From: Desulfuromonadales bacterium
Lineage (GTDB): Bacteria; Desulfobacterota; Desulfuromonadia; Geobacterales; Pseudopelobacteraceae
Assembly (NCBI GenBank): GCA_016650295.1
Contig: JAENWA010000031.1
Span: 1-38,020 of the forward strand
Direction: 5' to 3'
DNA: 38,020 nucleotides
Shown: positions 7,582 to 18,401 of the stretch, piece after piece
Layout: every line of letters begins with the position of its first letter
Numbering within the stretch: the stretch's first letter is position 1
Translations under genes and position numbers: made by a program
Notes under the pieces: model-generated
The model's input: the letters and a program-made list of their open reading frames with translations, nothing else
What the model was told of the DNA's origin: nothing
The model's database searches: none

Positions 7582-9051
7582 ATGTCAAACTTACTAAACC
7601 TTGAAGTTAAAAAGATTGTCGAAACCCCGCCGGAAGAGATCGAGCGCGTCAAAGAGTGGATCAACACGGATGAGTATAGAGAAAAGAACTTTGCCCGCCA
7701 GGCTCTGGTGATCAACCCGGTTCACGCCTGTCAGCCGCTGGGCGCTCAGCTGGTCGCACACGGTTTTGAAGGAACCCTGCCGTTCGTACATGGTTCACAG
7801 GGCTGTGCATCTTACTACCGTTCGACCCTCAACCGCCATTTCCGCGAGCCGGCCCCGGCAGTATCCGACTCCATGACCGAGGACGGCGCGGTATTCGGCG
7901 GCCAGAACAACCTCCATGAAGGGTTGGAGAATGCTTATTCGATCTACAAGCCCAAGATGATCGCGGTCTTCACCTCCTGCATGCCGGAGGTCATCGGCGA
8001 CGACCTGACCGCCTTCATCAAGAATGCCAAGCAGAAAGCTATTGTTCCCAAGGAACTGCCGATTCCCTACGCCAACACCCCCAGCTTCAACGGCACCCAT
8101 ATCCATGGCTACGACTCCATGCTGCTTTCGATCCTGCAGAACCTGACCGAGGGGAAACAGATCGAAGGACGCTGCACCGGCAAGCTGAACCTGATCGCCG
8201 GCTGCGACTTCAATACCGGTGACTACCGCGAGTACAAACGCATCCTGAAAGAATTCGGCATCCCTTATACTGTCCTGGCCGACATCTCCGACACCTTTGA
8301 TTCGCCCTGCGACGGCACCTATAATATCTACGCCGGTGGAACCAAGCTGGAGGATGCCGCCGACTCGATCAATGGCAAGGCCACCATCTCACTTGGTCCC
8401 TATGCCACACCCAAGACCTTCGGCTGGATCAAGGACAACTACTCCGGCAAGCATGTATCCATGCCGATGCCGATCGGTATCGAGAAGACCGATGCCTTCA
8501 TCATGAAGGTGGCCGAACTGTTCGGCAAGGAAGTGCCGGCTTCACTGAAGAACGAGCGCGGTCGCGCCGTGGATGCCGTCACCGACTCTCACCAGTACAT
8601 GCACGGCAAGAAGTTCGCAGTCTACGGCGACCCGGACTACCTGATGGGCTATGTCTCCTTCCTGCTGGAGATGGGCGCCCGTCCGCACCACATCCTCTGC
8701 AGCCGCGGCAGTAAGAAGGTCGAGAAAGAACTGCAGGCTCTGCTGGATGGCTCCATGTACGGCAAGGACTGCACAATCTACATGAACAAGGACCTCTGGC
8801 ATTTGCGTTCGCTGCTGATGACCGATGCGGTCGATGCCGTGATCGGCGACAGCCACGGCAAATTCGCCACCCGCGACGCCAAGGTACCGCTGTTCCGCTT
8901 CGGTTTCCCGGTCTTCGATCGCGTCAACAAGCACCGTTACCCGCTAATCGGCTATCAGGGCACCGTCAACATGGTGACCGAGATCTGCAACAAGTTTATC
9001 GATATCAAGGATGAGACCTGTGAGGATCGGTTTTTTGAATTGATGAGGTAG
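7582..9051 (+). CDS. nifK: Nitrogenase MoFe protein beta chain NifK
   Basis: Beta subunit of dinitrogenase, forming the alpha2-beta2 tetramer with NifD and contributing half of the P-cluster. Ligands Cys50 (NPVHACQPLG), Cys75 (GSQGCASYYRS) and Cys133 (FTSCMPEVIGDD) are present. At 489 aa it lacks the roughly 30-residue N-terminal extension of the Azotobacter-type protein, so it belongs to the shorter NifK type. The ATG at 7582 follows AAGGAG (7570-7575). It is the last gene of nifHDK: a strong terminator starts 36 bp after its stop. Expression should be coupled to nifHD by read-through across the repeat-containing gap, since no promoter is obvious before it. Confidence 0.98.
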   Translation: MSNLLNLEVKKIVETPPEEIERVKEWINTDEYREKNFARQALVINPVHACQPLGAQLVAHGFEGTLPFVHGSQGCASYYRSTLNRHFREPAPAVSDSMTEDGAVFGGQNNLHEGLENAYSIYKPKMIAVFTSCMPEVIGDDLTAFIKNAKQKAIVPKELPIPYANTPSFNGTHIHGYDSMLLSILQNLTEGKQIEGRCTGKLNLIAGCDFNTGDYREYKRILKEFGIPYTVLADISDTFDSPCDGTYNIYAGGTKLEDAADSINGKATISLGPYATPKTFGWIKDNYSGKHVSMPMPIGIEKTDAFIMKVAELFGKEVPASLKNERGRAVDAVTDSHQYMHGKKFAVYGDPDYLMGYVSFLLEMGARPHHILCSRGSKKVEKELQALLDGSMYGKDCTIYMNKDLWHLRSLLMTDAVDAVIGDSHGKFATRDAKVPLFRFGFPVFDRVNKHRYPLIGYQGTVNMVTEICNKFIDIKDETCEDRFFELMR

Positions 9052-9086
9052 ATTTTTCGTAACGGGATGTTACTGATGAATGAAAG

Positions 9087-9121
9087 AAAAGGGCGCTTCC
9101 CGGTGGGTTGCGCCCTTTTTG
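9087..9121. terminator. Bidirectional terminator after nifK
   Basis: AAGGGCGC and GCGCCCTT flank a 13-nt loop; the plus strand ends in a run of T (9114-9120) and the minus strand in TTTTC. It lies between the convergent nifK and nuclease genes and can serve both. Confidence 0.85.
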
Positions 9122-9122
9122 A

Positions 9123-9836
9123 TTAGCGTATGAGGTTGATCCAGAGATGCGTCAAATGAAGCTTGCTTTTGGTGCGATTTACTACAGACGTGCATTTGGT
9201 AATACGCCCATCGGTTTCCGGAGGTGTCAGTTGCTCCCGTTCCGACCAGGCAGGTTCAAAAGTCTGGATGCTCAAATCGGAAACCCAGGAGTTGATTTTC
9301 TCGCACCAGATTTCCGGATTCTCTTCCTGAAGATAGCCGATCATGCCAGCGTGTGTGAACTCTCTGCCATGAATTGAGCATTTGAAACGTTCGATGCCAC
9401 CACAAGAGATATGCTTTCCGTCTTTTTCAGGACCAATTACATATTCTTGACGCCGCTCACGGCCTAGAGTTGATGTCAGACGCTTTCCTTCAAAAACAGT
9501 GATTTTTGGAGGGTCGGTCGCGATATCTTCGATCTTGAGATGAATACCAATATCTGCTGCTGGACTGTTACCGCGCGTTTCGTCTTCCATACTTTCGTTA
9601 TGAGCAAAAAAAGGAAAGCCTTGTTTGTCGGCAACATTGGTAATGAAACGCGCCAAGCGTCTGTTTAAGCCATTTTCATTGACAATGTTCTCTTGCAGAG
9701 CAGATTCGGCGAATAATGGAAGGGAAAGTGTGATGACCTCAACAACGCTGTTGAATTGGGCGTTGTGAAGCGGCCCGATTAAAGTACCGGCGCCGCCGAG
9801 CATGCGTCTGGAGGAGAAGATCGTCACGGTGCTCAA
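9123..9836 (-). CDS. PD-(D/E)XK nuclease-like protein paired with a DNA methyltransferase
   Basis: This 237-aa protein carries a convincing PD-(D/E)XK nuclease pattern. An acidic N-terminal helix (NENGLNRRLARF, Glu54) is followed by Asp95 in AADIGI and then Glu116-Gly-Lys118 in ITVFEGKRL. A QEYV motif (Gln130, Tyr132) and the block CGGIERFKCSIHG...GMIGYLQ come next. Such a D...ExK...QxxxY-like layout is typical of restriction and DNA-repair nucleases. Its ATG overlaps the stop of the upstream 1025-aa methyltransferase by 4 nt (ATGA), so the two are co-translated. Together they look like a two-protein restriction-modification or anti-phage module. No named family is recognised. The gene converges on nifK and shares its terminator. 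AT content is higher than in the flanking nif genes, consistent with acquisition. Confidence 0.7.
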   Translation of the reverse strand: MSTVTIFSSRRMLGGAGTLIGPLHNAQFNSVVEVITLSLPLFAESALQENIVNENGLNRRLARFITNVADKQGFPFFAHNESMEDETRGNSPAADIGIHLKIEDIATDPPKITVFEGKRLTSTLGRERRQEYVIGPEKDGKHISCGGIERFKCSIHGREFTHAGMIGYLQEENPEIWCEKINSWVSDLSIQTFEPAWSEREQLTPPETDGRITKCTSVVNRTKSKLHLTHLWINLIR

Positions 9837-12800
9837 TATCCTTGACCCAAGAGATCGATCAAAGTTTCGTCGGCATCACGGAGGGCAATGGAGCGAAGCC
9901 AGTAACGCTTTTGGTTTGGCTTGATCATGAAAATAACATTCTGCTCGTACAGGCGAAGAATGCGGTTTATGAACAAGCGACTGCCCGGTTGGTGATGGAG
10001 CAATTCCTCAAGATAGGGAACAACTGTGTCTTCTTGAGGCAATTTCAATTGCGGTGTATCGCCGAAGCAAAATGGGAAGCAGATGAAAGAACCCATTGGA
10101 ATTGGCGATAGCGGACGGAACTGTTTGTACACGGGATTGAGGATGTTGCAGTACATTTCACCGAAGCTGCGTAAATCTGAATCATCCGCTTTTGTTAGTA
10201 CAGAGGATGCTTCGCCATTTCGTCGAAAATCGATAAGGTAATTTCCGATATCTTCAACAAGAGCTTGTTCCCAGAAATTTAGATCAATATCTTGCTCATC
10301 GTCAGGATATGGTAGTTCCATAATGTCGCTTTTGAGAAGTGCTGTAGCACGACCAACTAACATTTGGTTACTTATAATGGCAGCAAGAATTCCAAACAAG
10401 CCTGAATCGTTTAGATTGCTAGCAAGCTTTTGCAATTTTGCCTTGTCATCTTCTGGTGCGTAGACTCCAACAAATCGATTAGTAAAAACAAGATATTTAT
10501 CGATGAATGCCGCAGGGATAGCCAATCCATCTACCTTCTCGCTGATAAGCACGTGTGGTGCTGAAAAAATAGCCCGGCTATTACTACACGTTCTTTGAAA
10601 GAAAACGTCCTCACACGTTTTAACATCTTTCCAGTCAATCCCATGTACTGTTAATGCTTTTGGGGGAACTTGTTTCTTTCCAGTTATCCAATCGGCTGTT
10701 ATTGGTGGAATTTTTAGCTTAAACAACTTCATTCGCTCTACTGGAGAAAGCTTCACCAATTCCTGTATGTTAGGTTGATCATTTAAATAGCTTCCACACC
10801 CTACGCTATACCCTTCACCAAACTGCCAGCCATTACTTACTCTCTTTTGCTCCAGATATTCTCCCAACTTAAGAGTATCAGTAAACAAGCGATCCAACAT
10901 CCGGTGAAGACGGCCACCGCCAAGCAAATTAGCTTTCCAGACATACTGACGCTTCGCAATAGAGCTGCGGGCTATCCAGTGAAAATCATAGGGATCCAGC
11001 TCAAACAGTAGCTTCTCCTTGATCGCCCTGGTTCTGCGGAAAGTTACATGAAGGATTTTATCTTCTGTCACTGGGGCATTACGTCCGACTATCGCTGCCG
11101 CAGCAACTTGCGCCTTTGAAAAAAGCGATCCTTCCAGCGGAGTAAAATCAAAGACCTGATTAATGGCGAATTGCTCGAACAGGTAGCCACGGAATGGCAG
11201 TGCGTTGCCGTTGTAGAGCAGAGGTCCGGCTGGTTGAATCAGGCACACCGCCGCATCTTTGCGGGCAAGCCGGAATGATTGCTCAAGGAAAAGGAGAGCC
11301 AGCTGGGTATCCGGAAGTTTGGGACGATTAGTTGCGTTGGCCGCTTCAACTCTCTTTGCAGCTGGTGTCGTCAGCTTACTTTCAAAAGGTGGGTTCCCGA
11401 CAATCAGGTCAAAGTGATTGTCAAATTTTCCTGACTCAATAATTTCAAAGAAATCCTTGGCCAGCAGATTGCGATTTTGCAGGTTGTCGAATTTGAGTTC
11501 CTTCCAGATAACCAGCGGTTCCAATTCATCACAGAGCGCCACACAGAGGCTAAATGCCGTAATCAAGACCGCTTCAGGCTTTTCATCAAACCCGAAAATG
11601 CTGTTTTTCAGGATTTCCTTTAAATCTAGATGGGTTGGCTGTCTCCAGTCATTGGCAATACGCCAGCACTGAATGAGACGTTTGAATGCGCCCACCAAGA
11701 AGATGCCCGAGCCGCATGCCGGGTCGAGGATCTTCCAGGAAAGGGTTTCCGCCTTAAGAGGCAGGCACTGATCCAGCAGAAAATCGACCAGCATGGGAGG
11801 GGTGTAGACAACTCCCTTGTCGCTTGAATGGCCTTCTTTGTTTGTGTCTTTTGTCTCCAAGCCCTTTTTCTTTGTCTTGGCATCTTTCTTTGCAAGGAAC
11901 TCTTCATAAATATTGCTGATTAACTCAACCGGGAGGTCCTGAAACGAATAGAGCGGCCAGAACAGCATCTGACCGTTGTTCGGGTCCAGATCGCCCTTTA
12001 AAAAGTCAGCAATAGGCGAAAGATCAGCTTGCCCTAACTCAATTTTTTCATTGTCGTTTAATTCAAAGATGCCGCCGTTGAATTGTCCGCTCAGGTGGTA
12101 AAACAGCCTGATGCAGCTCCCTTTTTCGCGGAAAAGCGCTTCGAGATCATCATTGTTTGCATGGGAAAAGCGGCGCAAGAAGCCATGTTCAAAAACCCGA
12201 TTCTCGGCTGAGTCCTTCCGGTCATTCAAGTACTTGACGAGTATCGCCATGACCAGAATACGATTGACGGTTGGCTCTGACAGTATGTCAAGCTTAAGCA
12301 GTTTTTGCCTGAATGTATTAAGATGGCTGAGTAGTTTGTAGTATGCGGTATTCTCAAGCGAAAAATCGTTTTTGAATTTGGGGTTTTCCCAAAGAGTTCC
12401 GGCGGCGACTTCGCGAGCAACAAACGCCCGATTGGCGGCCACTATTTTTTCTAGTATGTGGAAAGGAGTGTAGACGGGGCCATTCGTGGTCTTGTCAATC
12501 GCAGGCTCTTGTCTGCAATTGATAATCTTTACCTGTCCGGCAGTCAGAATAAACACCAAAGGAACAACACCGGCATTCCAGAGGCGGAGATGTATCCTGG
12601 CGTAGCGCGCCTCATTCAGGAAAAGATCATTGTCGTGATAGATATAAATCTGGGGGATTGGCGAACGTTTGTCTCCTTCGGGAAACATACGGAAAAAAAC
12701 TGCATTGGCTTCATAGGATTCTGCTTGTTCCAGCGCAATCCGGATGTGCGCTTCGGCGTCTTCCTTGTTTGCAACAAAAAAAAGACTCGTCGGCTCACCA

Positions 12801-12910
12801 TCGGCGGGGAGCATTTCCAAACAGTTCAACTCGTCTTTGAATTTGTTGTCGCTCAAACCGCTCATATTGCTTCTGTCCATAGTTGGATTGACTGAAAACA
12901 CCCGTATCAC
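9833..12910 (-). CDS. Large Eco57I/type IIG-like N6-adenine DNA methyltransferase
   Basis: Class I SAM-dependent DNA methyltransferase of 1025 aa in the gamma motif order. A motif X-like segment GVVYTPPMLVDFLLDQ (about 367-382) precedes motif I DPACGSG (396-402) and the catalytic NPPF (506-509), as in N6-adenine enzymes. The C-terminal half (about 640-1025) resembles a target-recognition region of Eco57I/PglX-like proteins. The N-terminal 210 residues contain a block around WNAGVVPLVFI reminiscent of type IIG N-termini, but I see no clear D...ExK nuclease site there; the nuclease is instead encoded by the overlapping downstream gene. The start is uncertain: GTG at 12910 has a TATAAT-like box only about 10 nt upstream on the minus strand, so ATG at 12880 or 12865 may be the real start. 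The gene splits the nif cluster. Confidence 0.85.
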   Translation of the reverse strand: MIRVFSVNPTMDRSNMSGLSDNKFKDELNCLEMLPADGEPTSLFFVANKEDAEAHIRIALEQAESYEANAVFFRMFPEGDKRSPIPQIYIYHDNDLFLNEARYARIHLRLWNAGVVPLVFILTAGQVKIINCRQEPAIDKTTNGPVYTPFHILEKIVAANRAFVAREVAAGTLWENPKFKNDFSLENTAYYKLLSHLNTFRQKLLKLDILSEPTVNRILVMAILVKYLNDRKDSAENRVFEHGFLRRFSHANNDDLEALFREKGSCIRLFYHLSGQFNGGIFELNDNEKIELGQADLSPIADFLKGDLDPNNGQMLFWPLYSFQDLPVELISNIYEEFLAKKDAKTKKKGLETKDTNKEGHSSDKGVVYTPPMLVDFLLDQCLPLKAETLSWKILDPACGSGIFLVGAFKRLIQCWRIANDWRQPTHLDLKEILKNSIFGFDEKPEAVLITAFSLCVALCDELEPLVIWKELKFDNLQNRNLLAKDFFEIIESGKFDNHFDLIVGNPPFESKLTTPAAKRVEAANATNRPKLPDTQLALLFLEQSFRLARKDAAVCLIQPAGPLLYNGNALPFRGYLFEQFAINQVFDFTPLEGSLFSKAQVAAAAIVGRNAPVTEDKILHVTFRRTRAIKEKLLFELDPYDFHWIARSSIAKRQYVWKANLLGGGRLHRMLDRLFTDTLKLGEYLEQKRVSNGWQFGEGYSVGCGSYLNDQPNIQELVKLSPVERMKLFKLKIPPITADWITGKKQVPPKALTVHGIDWKDVKTCEDVFFQRTCSNSRAIFSAPHVLISEKVDGLAIPAAFIDKYLVFTNRFVGVYAPEDDKAKLQKLASNLNDSGLFGILAAIISNQMLVGRATALLKSDIMELPYPDDEQDIDLNFWEQALVEDIGNYLIDFRRNGEASSVLTKADDSDLRSFGEMYCNILNPVYKQFRPLSPIPMGSFICFPFCFGDTPQLKLPQEDTVVPYLEELLHHQPGSRLFINRILRLYEQNVIFMIKPNQKRYWLRSIALRDADETLIDLLGQGY

Positions 12911-13379
12911 GTTAACTAAATTATACTGCTAATTATATCAAAGTTCTGTGTCAGAATAAGTCGTAATTAGAATCATCCTTGCCGTCGATACCAAATTTAT
13001 GGTTGTCTCAGAAGCTTTCCGCTGGCCATGTTCGTCTCTCCGGCTTCTTTGGTTGCTGTGCTTGTATAAACAATCACAAGCATTTTCGCAAGGTTATTCA
13101 TAAGTATAGCGTATTTATACCGTTATGAATTATGTATTTGGCTGATAAATACATAGCAGAATTTATACAGATTTGTTGTACAACAAATTTGTATTATTAC
13201 TACATTTCAACTCCGATTCTGCCTGTTTTTTGATCTCCAGGGCAGCCTTGCACGGCATGAGTCTGTTATGACGTCAACCATCAACAGGCTGCACATAATT
13301 TAAGCAAACAGATGCCTGGAGTGGTGAGGCCATAAAAATAAAACCTATTATTACTGATAGTTATATATTTATTTCAACT
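12911..13379. other. 469-bp regulatory gap between the methyltransferase gene and nifEN
   Basis: No coding sequence is supported. The gap is AT-rich and holds three palindromes: CATAAGTATA paired with TATAC-CG-TTATG (about 13099-13127), TATGTATTT/AAATACATA (13131-13155) and the perfect 18-mer ATTTGTTGTACAACAAAT (13171-13188). It also holds the TTATTACTG motif (13348-13356) shared with the nifH upstream region. The palindromes lie about 190-280 bp upstream of the nifEN sigma-54 promoter and about 190-280 bp upstream of the divergent methyltransferase gene, so they could be enhancer sites for either. Confidence 0.55.
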
Positions 13380-13395
13380 TGGCACAGCACATGCT
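13380..13395 (+). promoter_or_regulatory. Sigma-54 (RpoN) promoter of nifEN
   Basis: TGGCACAGCACATGCT fits the -24/-12 consensus and differs from the nifH promoter at a single base. The -24 GG is at 13381-13382 and the -12 GC at 13393-13394, giving a start of transcription near 13405. Confidence 0.85.
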
Positions 13396-13429
13396 AACAA
13401 CAATGATACAAAAGCATTTATTACGTGGC

Positions 13430-13476
13430 AACGGCGCCATCCTGATTCATCCCGTATGAAATGGAGCGCCGTTTTT
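13430..13476 (+). terminator. Terminator-like hairpin inside the nifEN leader
   Basis: AACGGCGC (13430-13437) and GCGCCGTT (13466-13473) are perfect 8-bp arms ending in a T-run; an inner TTCAT/ATGAA stem-loop lies at 13446-13460. It sits between the sigma-54 promoter and the nifEN start at 13519, as in nifH, and both leaders share GGCAA-N-GGCGCC at the left arm. This supports common attenuation/antitermination control. Confidence 0.75.
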
Positions 13477-17606: not shown

Positions 17607-18401
17607 ATGCACAATGGTTCCTTCAATAACTGCAACCTGCCGCCCTGGGTCATCGCCTCGCGCCATTTCAACGAAAATCCGCAACCACTGGAGATTCAGG
17701 GCGTAAAGGAGGGTAATCGCTTTCTCTTTGAGAAGTTGGCGGCAATTGCCTCCCAGGAAGAGCGTGCCCTGATCTTCAATGACTTCATGTCGGTCAAGTT
17801 TCAGTTACACCATTGGCAGGACCAGACCGACAGTGCCAGGAAGAGTATCAAGAACAGTTACCTGCGCTTTCTGCGCGGCTGGATGATGGACTCCAACTCT
17901 GTCGAGGGGGCGGTTCTCAAACGCTGGGTGGAAAGCCGTATGGGCATCACCCCCACCTACCATCGCGCCCGCATATCCGGCATCCACAGTCAGGCTTATT
18001 TCGATTTTTCCGTGGATGTCATGAAGGGGAGCGCCCGCACCAACGCTATCCAGTCGCAACTGGATATCCTTTATGAATACTGCCAGTTCGAGCTTCTCCG
18101 CACATACCCCTCAGAAGCCTCAATTCCTCTGTATCGCGGCACATATGATGCCAATGAACACGATGTCATCGAGCAAATCGGCAAACGTGAACAGATCGTA
18201 CGGCTGAACAATTTGGCATCATTTACCTCTGATGAGGAGCGGGCCTGGGAGTTCGGTTCAACTGTCTGGGAGACGCGGGTGCCGCTCGGCAAGATTTTTT
18301 TCTACAACGACCTGCTGCCCGGCAGCATCATGAAAGGCGAGGGGGAATACCTGGTCATTGGCGGAGAATACAAGGTCCGGCAGGTAATGTGCACGGTGTA
18401 A
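17607..18401 (+). CDS. draT: NAD(+)-dinitrogenase-reductase ADP-ribosyltransferase DraT
   Basis: DraT transfers ADP-ribose from NAD to the NifH arginine (Arg99 here), shutting off nitrogenase after ammonium or energy changes. The 264-aa protein has the family start NLPPWVIASRHFNENP. Its R-S-E type catalytic elements are visible: IPLYRGTY (Arg177), LNNLASFTSDEERAWEFG (Ser205) and MKGEGEYLVIGGEY (Glu245/Glu247). The ATG at 17607 has GAGGTGA at 17592-17598. It is the last plus-strand gene of the nif block and may be read from the nifEN promoter, though a 109-bp gap with a stem-forming repeat precedes it. The reversing glycohydrolase draG is not in this window. Confidence 0.93.
   Translation: MHNGSFNNCNLPPWVIASRHFNENPQPLEIQGVKEGNRFLFEKLAAIASQEERALIFNDFMSVKFQLHHWQDQTDSARKSIKNSYLRFLRGWMMDSNSVEGAVLKRWVESRMGITPTYHRARISGIHSQAYFDFSVDVMKGSARTNAIQSQLDILYEYCQFELLRTYPSEASIPLYRGTYDANEHDVIEQIGKREQIVRLNNLASFTSDEERAWEFGSTVWETRVPLGKIFFYNDLLPGSIMKGEGEYLVIGGEYKVRQVMCTV

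Follow-up and report, generated by a model that had tools for sequence, protein, structure and literature searches.

Type IIG restriction enzymes such as Eco57I, BpuSI, DrdV and MmeI combine a gamma-class methyltransferase with a recognition domain in ~1000 aa and, according to the available part of PMC3874165, carry a PD-(D/E)XK domain at their own N-terminus, with R joined to M in each of the 17 organisations of its Table 4. A split type IIG-like layout is already known: as described in an excerpt of PMC4752239, AchA6III, OspHL35III and MexAMORF1192P, reported in 2016, have a methyltransferase with a recognition domain, no N-terminal PD-ExK and an endonuclease on a separate peptide (MexAMORF1192P having separate methyltransferase and endonuclease), and their nucleases are of the PLD, GIY-YIG or HNH type, together with translocases. 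Within the excerpts covered by our literature search for a named system matching the pair described here, this report was the only close one. Two further systems invite comparison: AhdI, whose M and S subunits are distinct and whose restriction enzyme is type IIP-like (partial texts of PMC4081073 and PMC3874165), and HVO_A0006 of Haloferax volcanii, a free-standing PD-(D/E)XK protein related to the type IIG nuclease end, whose deletion changed adenine methylation (partial text of PMC4389544).

The pair analysed here lies in the window, i.e. the whole stretch of 38,020 nucleotides under study. Like AchA6III, OspHL35III and MexAMORF1192P, it consists of a methyltransferase/recognition protein devoid of PD-ExK and a separate endonuclease peptide; unlike in these systems, the nuclease resembles PD-(D/E)XK enzymes, and translocase genes neither recur among the nearest ORFs (136 ORFs, 77 loci) nor lie beside the window pair. 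This PD-(D/E)XK-like, translocase-free form is a new variant of the split layout. As far as the excerpts describe them, type IIH or AhdI-like ("Type 1 1/2") systems also associate a gamma-class methyltransferase with a separate restriction enzyme, but the window pair differs from AhdI in having M and S in one chain and a nuclease that seems not to read the site; likewise, HVO_A0006 is described as a rare fragment between transposition genes, whereas pairs of the window type are conserved.

The locus and its setting between nif genes

Features of the locus, in window coordinates:

9123..9836, minus strand: nuclease gene, 237 aa, starting at a TTG that shares the tetranucleotide TTGA with the methyltransferase stop
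9833..12910, minus strand: methyltransferase gene, 1025 aa as called from GTG (ORF and family matches)
9833..9836, minus strand: 4-nt overlap of the two genes
9552..9554, minus strand: nuclease D95, just ahead of the second core strand (model)
9483..9491, minus strand: nuclease E116-x-K118, third core strand (model)
12518..12784, minus strand: methyltransferase N-terminal domain, residues 43-131, the region where type IIG enzymes carry the nuclease; no D...E-x-K
11705..11725, minus strand: motif I, DPACGSG, residues 396-402 (alignment)
11384..11395, minus strand: motif IV, NPPF, residues 506-509 (alignment)
10301..10990, minus strand: target-recognition domain, residues 641-870 (our own delimitation), the portion exchanged between some close relatives
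9869..9922, minus strand: conserved C-terminal motif K-P-x-x-x-R-Y-W...A-x-R-D-A-D
9087..9119, no strand: inverted repeat (arms of 15 nt) located where nifK and the nuclease gene converge, resembling a terminator on visual inspection
12911..13455, no strand: divergent intergenic region towards nifEN, 37% GC
13158-13201, within the 12911..13455 region: inverted repeat with 22-nt arms

Both ORFs, their lengths and their overlap are as given in an earlier note on this DNA. The pair lies between two genes that we take to be nifK and a fused nifEN; the nif assignments draw on similarity and, for nifD, on a nitrogenase component 1 family match. The earlier note held that the pair interrupts the nif cluster; its position between nifK and nifEN stands, but the spot is itself a variable one, since six of seven relatives, hand-picked out of 52 with a nifEN match, carry 1.3-13 kb with other genes in the nifK-nifEN spacer, which is ~170 nt long in the seventh. 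The pair was also said to be AT-richer than its surroundings, and indeed its GC content (46.5%, vs 56.0% in the rest of the window) falls below the range of 134 mutually overlapping segments of the same length elsewhere in the window (51.8-61.1%). The repeat at 9087-9119 is absent from the list of the terminator scan, and scans for sigma-70 promoters and for terminators found no more than in shuffled sequences.

The methyltransferase and its predicted nuclease partner

The large protein matches the Eco57I (8.8e-17) and N6_Mtase (3.5e-12) families and a PADLOC type IIG model (4.4e-46). DPACGSG precedes NPPF, which we take to be the gamma order, hence the assignment to the gamma-class N6-adenine methyltransferases. 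Both motifs are intact, and D396-P397, C399-G402 and N506-F509 belong to the invariant columns of a 66-row alignment. Structural matches include CamA, DrdV, BpuSI and M.TaqI, with DrdV and BpuSI aligning over most of the protein (Z 19.4 and 18.2). Motif order, invariant columns and structural matches thus describe a gamma-class m6A methyltransferase with a C-terminal target-recognition domain, as in type IIG enzymes. Unlike in these enzymes, there is no active N-terminal PD-(D/E)XK in the same chain: the earlier note saw no clear nuclease site in the N-terminus, and by eye D...E-x-K is likewise absent ahead of the methyltransferase domain in the window protein and in 14 relatives bearing the partner gene, whereas two single-chain proteins, L149 and L160, do have an N-terminal D...E-x-K (also by eye). 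A broader search for single-chain comparators found few, with 33 plasmid matches lying outside the comparison. The N-terminal domain may be a decayed nuclease domain, an idea prompted by visual comparison with L149 and L160 and by how far the DrdV structural alignment extends; hhalign did not back it, with a probability of 0.1 that does not exceed those of two control regions (0.1 and 0.2). Note that the annotated GTG start probably sits too far upstream, the true start probably being the ATG at 12880 or 12865, since the alignment with relatives 71 and 78% identical to the protein begins only at residue 10 and in-frame ATG codons occur at residues 11 and 16.

The 237-aa protein is probably a PD-(D/E)XK-like nuclease, with cleavage predicted. 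It contains the D95, E116 and K118 residues singled out in the earlier note, and in its AF2 model (pLDDT 81) the elements run a-b-b-b-a-b and D95 and E116/K118 sit on the strands where they are expected, as in the PD-(D/E)XK superfamily. This site is kept across the family: the D residue precedes E-x-K in 73/73 aligned homologues, at 20-30 residues in 72 and at 19 in one, the invariance of E-x-K in the scanned loci being partly by construction as E-x-K-R-L belonged to the scan pattern. (The 73-row alignment is without duplicates, four loci from family genomes and the truncated or odd L057, L068, L077, L114 and L118.) Fold-library matches are weak and mixed, namely McrC (Z 5.7), SwaI (4.8) and NucC (4.6), along with an unrelated Rep15 chain (5.6); Foldseek returned nothing at E<=0.001 and PDB sequence searches nothing convincing. 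The window nuclease has no matching family in Pfam, NCBIfam or PADLOC, and the 73 family members none in Pfam or PADLOC.

Pairing across bacteria and recognition-domain exchange

Small-protein homologues that never pair with such methylases would have counted against the earlier note. Instead, a genome scan for the nuclease placed a methyltransferase directly upstream in 78 of 80 loci (kept out of 88 confirmed), spread over many phyla: the two genes are a real unit, conserved as such. A same-strand methyltransferase was found for 83 of the 85 nuclease genes scored, and 82 of these 83 junctions fall between -32 and +15 nt (69 between -1 and +12 nt; eight at -4, as in the window). Taken with the conserved D/E/K residues and the lack of a known family for the nuclease, this supports the idea of a poorly described restriction-modification or anti-phage system made of a methyltransferase and a separate PD-(D/E)XK nuclease. 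Nine plasmid matches were obtained, and the pair is present in all six that were opened; the methyltransferase frame is broken near its end in the plasmid locus L005, frames are also broken in L109 and L166, and L068 has a fragment of the nuclease but lacks a methyltransferase in its vicinity. The phage genomes searched gave no match and the viral contigs two loci. Distant methyltransferases, two of them in the window's own genome, carry diverged homologous nucleases in the same place: five partner groups compared with the nuclease gave hhalign probabilities of 98, 97, 95, 82 and 36 (shuffles <=2.1). By the same method the distant partner in L153 showed no supported homology to the nuclease, and the viral relative L159 has no partner gene within the available sequence.

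Of 100 loci searched, 39 have a gene for a 62-70-aa protein immediately ahead of the methyltransferase gene, a count including the four small plasmid genes that built the profile; the window locus lacks this gene. Three of four such proteins match Pfam ribbon-helix-helix models, below cut-offs (best E 0.011). Since this third gene recurs, the system may in some loci comprise more than the two genes; the odds of the mechanism proposed below are unaffected. Among the nearest ORFs (>=100 aa; 136 ORFs at 77 loci, without L122-L124, duplicates of L121), no Pfam family exceeds 3/136, DEAD and Helicase_C domains reaching 2/136 each and the GIY-YIG-type T5orf172/MUG113 3/136. These ORFs matched 203 PADLOC models, vs 45 for 136 farther ORFs drawn from 180 at the same loci, a tally of models rather than proteins as one large enzyme can match many. 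The farther ORFs also hold defence models (type I R, LmuA, IetA).

Pair comparisons were made on the 64 loci common to both alignments, for which nuclease and methyltransferase identities are correlated (Spearman 0.82-0.92, 2016 pairs). In three of the 26 close pairs (loci with nucleases 75-99.5% identical), representing two independent events, the recognition core is 44-49% identical while the nuclease and the methyltransferase core are 85-92% identical. This core is at or below 60% in nine close pairs, whose methyltransferase cores are 86-92% identical; exchange is not frequent, since the other 17 keep it above 60%. In L072/L076 and L094/L102, identity drops sharply over ~180 aa, to window values of 37-65% and 30-67%, and windows along the nuclease are at 72-97%. 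Since the recognition core has been exchanged while the nuclease changed little, the nuclease probably depends on the methyltransferase for its site, and the three pairs argue in favour of one recognition module shared by methylation and cleavage.

Proposed mechanism and alternative readings

We think it quite probable that the pair is a type IIG-like restriction-modification system that is split and has no translocase. Using its own target-recognition domain, the large protein would find its DNA site and methylate an adenine there, thereby marking host DNA. The small PD-(D/E)XK protein would not read sites itself: it would dock on the methyltransferase, possibly through the C-terminal K-P-x-x-x-R-Y-W...A-x-R-D-A-D motif, and cut DNA at or near the unmodified sites located by its partner. 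Both proteins would be needed, and the system would presumably protect against phages. The computational basis of this reading is the tight gene pair, the nuclease-like element order and catalytic residues, the intact methyltransferase motifs and the exchange of the recognition domain with a nuclease that is little changed.

It is this exchange that makes an ordinary type II system, in which an independent restriction enzyme reads the same site itself as in types IIP and IIH, an unlikely reading: such an enzyme, faced with an exchanged recognition core, would either attack host sites left unprotected or become useless, yet the nucleases of the three exchanged pairs are still 85-87% identical. 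Moreover, methyltransferases of many phyla share a single nuclease family, while restriction enzymes that act independently and differ in specificity are usually unrelated. Adjacent but separate R and M genes are nonetheless the classical type II layout, R.SwaI figures among the nuclease fold matches (Z 4.8), and many type II enzymes are accompanied by gamma-class methyltransferases, according to the available part of PMC4081073.

The odds are poorer still for a BREX- or abortive-type defence, where the methyltransferase would mark self and the nuclease would be triggered by infection or target different substrates (modified DNA or RNA) instead of cutting at the methyltransferase's sites. PglX models occur among the weaker methyltransferase matches, PglX/BrxX structures align with this protein (Z up to 19.8), and the best nuclease-type fold matches include McrC and NucC, two nucleases that serve other kinds of defence; but the window neighbours are nif genes, not PglZ, BrxC or McrB genes, and no Pfam family exceeds 3/136 among the nearest ORFs. 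Membership of BREX or DISARM was rejected given weak PglX/DrmMI scores (47.9 bits vs a cut-off of 400 for the BREX-2 PglX model), the nif neighbours and the lack of clustered PglZ, BrxC and further BREX genes. We give the least credit, and very little of it, to an epigenetic switch without a defence role, or a selfish addiction module, whose nuclease would be a regulator or no longer active. That the pair stands alone in the nif cluster, that the frames of copies such as L109 and L166 are broken and that a small DNA-binding-like protein often precedes it would suit this idea, at odds with which are the catalytic residues kept in aligned members and the excess of PADLOC models matched by the nearest neighbours over farther genes.

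Beyond the split type IIG-like system itself, we see an even chance that the pair exemplifies a phylum-spanning superfamily of translocase-free split systems, a distinct restriction-modification subtype in which the methyltransferase, its own N-terminal nuclease decayed and its C-terminal motif serving as the dock, would guide a single PD-(D/E)XK nuclease acting in trans and could itself be exchanged, with a dedicated ribbon-helix-helix regulator in one large branch. PADLOC type IIG models cover the methyltransferase, and neither PADLOC nor Pfam covers its partner; annotation would therefore show a complete type IIG enzyme next to a hypothetical protein. If the proposed mechanism is true, methylation and cleavage would be separable by omitting one protein, and new cutting specificities would arise from the exchange of one domain. 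Separate R and M genes have been proposed, in the accessible part of PMC6158711, to arise by duplication of a type IIG gene; a split enzyme with one shared recognition domain would be another intermediate on the path from type IIG enzymes to separate R and M genes.

The methyltransferase–nuclease pair in the nifK–nifEN spacer

The genes for the gamma-class N6-adenine methyltransferase (1025 residues; 12910-9833, minus strand) and the separate PD-(D/E)XK-like nuclease (237 residues; 9836-9123, minus strand) lie where the earlier note had placed them, with the four bases 9833-9836 common to both ORFs. The pair is indeed AT-richer than its surroundings, as had been claimed: its GC content is 46.5%, against 56.0% in the remaining window and 51.8-61.1% across 134 other segments of the same length, which overlap one another. 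On one side it is bordered by nifK and on the other by a fused nifEN gene; the near ends of these two (9045 and 13360) are 4.3 kb apart in the window (spacer 9046-13359). In G312, a genome of the same genus, the homologous flanks are approximately 170 nt apart, and in six other relatives the spacer measures 1.3 to 13 kb and holds different genes (by eye, regulator-like, HipA-like or toxin-antitoxin-like genes and others). The length and content of the nifK–nifEN spacer thus vary within the family; the seven relatives were chosen by us and so do not show how often. Two further features of the region are:

13158-13201, two 22-nt arms forming an inverted repeat without a spacer, within the 37% GC stretch that separates the divergent methyltransferase and nifEN genes; a possible operator
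17607-18398, dinitrogenase reductase ADP-ribosyltransferase (DRAT) gene (match 3e-113), downstream of nifEN

Given the DRAT gene, the nitrogenase of the window is probably also switched by ADP-ribosylation.

Pairing and surroundings across genomes

The methyltransferase and the nuclease are a unit. Scanning the genome collection with a profile of the nuclease gave 88 confirmed loci; the best 80, which were kept, come from Geobacter/Pelobacter, Desulfobulbaceae, Planctomycetes, Verrucomicrobia, Nitrospirae, Spirochaetes, Acidobacteria, Tannerella and many Proteobacteria (names as recorded), and the methyltransferase is present at 78 of them. The two exceptions are a contig that begins at the nuclease (L077) and a nuclease fragment (L068). 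When these 80 loci were scored with the window and four family genomes (85 nuclease genes), a same-strand methyltransferase was found for 83, with a junction of -32 to +15 nt in 82 of the 83, the outlier being L109, where the methyltransferase is split into two frames. Nine plasmid records match, and the pair is present in all six that were opened, the methyltransferase frame being broken near its end in one (L005). Conversely, in 60 family genomes the nuclease sits beside all five methyltransferase homologues with E ≤ 1e-120, to which a contig-end fragment in genome G333 is to be added. Copies with a broken methyltransferase or nuclease frame (L109, L166, L167, L005) reflect decay or assembly error.

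The arrangement extends to distant methyltransferases (24-36% identity), whose end is overlapped or touched by an ORF of 210-250 residues with D...E-x-K visible in most; for L159 the available sequence shows no partner, and L156 runs to the end of its contig. Profile comparison of these partners with the nuclease family of the window gave probabilities of 98 (L155/L158), 97 (L157), 95 (L138), 82 (L146) and 36 (L137/L139/L152), versus at most 2.1 for shuffled controls (20 shuffles each); homology is unsupported for the L153 partner (2.1). Nine distant partners had no match better than E 0.014 in Pfam/PADLOC. Two of the distant methyltransferases come from the genome that holds the window itself (G000, contig C36):

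G000:C36:25428-29232, pair L137, deep family
G000:C36:51000-54889, pair L138, deep family

By eye, the L138 pair comes after a type III-type methyltransferase/helicase-like pair (44378-49024 of C36), and Mu-type prophage-like genes (G000:C36:11926-23508) lie just before the genome's second pair.

Neighbouring ORFs of at least 100 residues were surveyed at 77 loci with PADLOC (E ≤ 1e-10), the tally being of models, not proteins. The 136 nearest proteins matched 203 models, including GajB, HamB, LmuB and RM proteins, versus 45 for farther ORFs (136 of 180), which also include RM and LmuA proteins; the excess of defence models beside the pair is suggestive only. No Pfam family occurs in more than 3 of the 136 nearest ORFs of this size, and hence no recurring translocase. 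At 39 of 100 loci (including the four used for its profile), a same-strand gene for a protein of 62-70 residues immediately precedes the methyltransferase ORF or overlaps it; under a stricter distance rule the count is 37 of the 89 loci whose upstream sequence exceeds 600 nt:

L003:4886-5080, small third gene, upstream of the methyltransferase
L004:4831-5043, same
L006:4874-5062, same
L007:4811-5005, same
35 further loci, same

This gene, mostly recorded in Proteobacteria (names as recorded), is absent from the window and from its near relatives. Since its product resembles ribbon-helix-helix proteins (Pfam, below cut-off), it is perhaps a regulator or control protein of the operon.

Architecture of the two proteins

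The methyltransferase matches the Eco57I and N6_Mtase families and a PADLOC type IIG model (4.4e-46). Its DPACGSG and NPPF columns are invariant across 66 aligned relatives, A398 excepted, and follow each other as is usual in gamma-class enzymes; its true start is likely the ATG at residue 11 or 16 rather than the GTG. The AlphaFold model (pLDDT 86) aligns with CamA (Z 23), type I M subunits (Z about 20), PglX/BrxX (Z up to 19.8) and the type IIG enzymes DrdV (Z 19.4, residues 21-873) and BpuSI (Z 18.2). Residues 43-131, covered by the DrdV alignment, correspond in position to the nuclease of type IIG enzymes, and neither D nor E-x-K was found there by eye. That this segment is a decayed nuclease is only a hypothesis, because profile comparison of the N-terminus with the few single-chain N-termini gathered did not support common descent. 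At the C-terminus, a K-x3-5-R-[YF]-W motif is present in 74 of 76 methyltransferases, with a variant form in the other two, and is missing from L160 and L181, the two single-chain proteins with intact ends that were examined; it may be a dock, two comparators being too few.

Pfam, NCBIfam and PADLOC hold no family matching the nuclease of the window, and a search of 73 members against Pfam and PADLOC gave no family with a match to more than a single member (best E 0.0054). Its AlphaFold model (pLDDT 81) comprises helix 54-71, strands 76-82, 96-102 and 115-120, helix 147-152, strand 162-169 and helix 174-189, which is the usual element order of PD-(D/E)XK enzymes; the third strand carries E116/K118, and D95 directly precedes the second. 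Structure-library matches are weak (McrC Z 5.7, SwaI 4.8, NucC 4.6), unrelated chains scoring similarly (Rep15 5.6), and Foldseek gave nothing at E ≤ 0.001. The search pattern contained E-x-K-R-L, the invariance of which is thus by construction; independent of it are a D 19-30 residues before the E in all 73 members, and R128, E131 and Y132 in all 85 nucleases.

Site recognition and relation to type IIG systems

Were the nuclease to recognise its site by itself, altering the recognition domain of the methyltransferase would be expected to do harm. Comparison of 64 loci gives 26 pairs whose nucleases are 75-99.5% identical; the recognition core is at most 60% identical in 9 of them and above 60% in 17. 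In three (L072/L076, L076/L082 and L094/L102, representing two independent events) it is 44-49% identical, versus 85-92% for the nuclease and the methyltransferase core. Because recognition cores average 41% identity over all 2016 pairs, these three look like replacements. Along the sequence, identity drops over about 180 residues to 37-65% (L072/L076) and 30-67% (L094/L102), nuclease windows staying at 72-97%; L137/L139, of the distant subfamily, is a weaker case with a broader drop (30-77%, nucleases 75% identical). Methylation and cleavage shift specificity together in type IIG enzymes, according to the relevant passages of PMC4081073; were both to shift together here too, the methyltransferase would direct the nuclease, as we infer from these comparisons. 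The replacements would also be compatible with a nuclease that itself has little specificity, or that acts on different DNA.

In PMC3874165, a type IIG enzyme is a methyltransferase whose cleavage domain sits at the N-terminus, R being joined to M in all organisations tabulated there. The corresponding part of PMC4752239 already reports type IIG-like systems whose endonuclease is a peptide of its own. In one of these a PLD nuclease is fused to a translocase, in another a GIY-YIG nuclease is accompanied by a translocase, and in a third, unrelated to MmeI, an HNH nuclease is found with two translocases. The pair studied here differs from the split systems described in that part in that its nuclease is PD-(D/E)XK-like and no translocase accompanies it, and a literature search, separate from REBASE and the tables of PMC4752239, gave no published name for it. 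The pair would accordingly be a new form of an already known, split type IIG-like layout. In outline, we hold with fair confidence that the pair would work as a split, translocase-free type IIG-like RM system.
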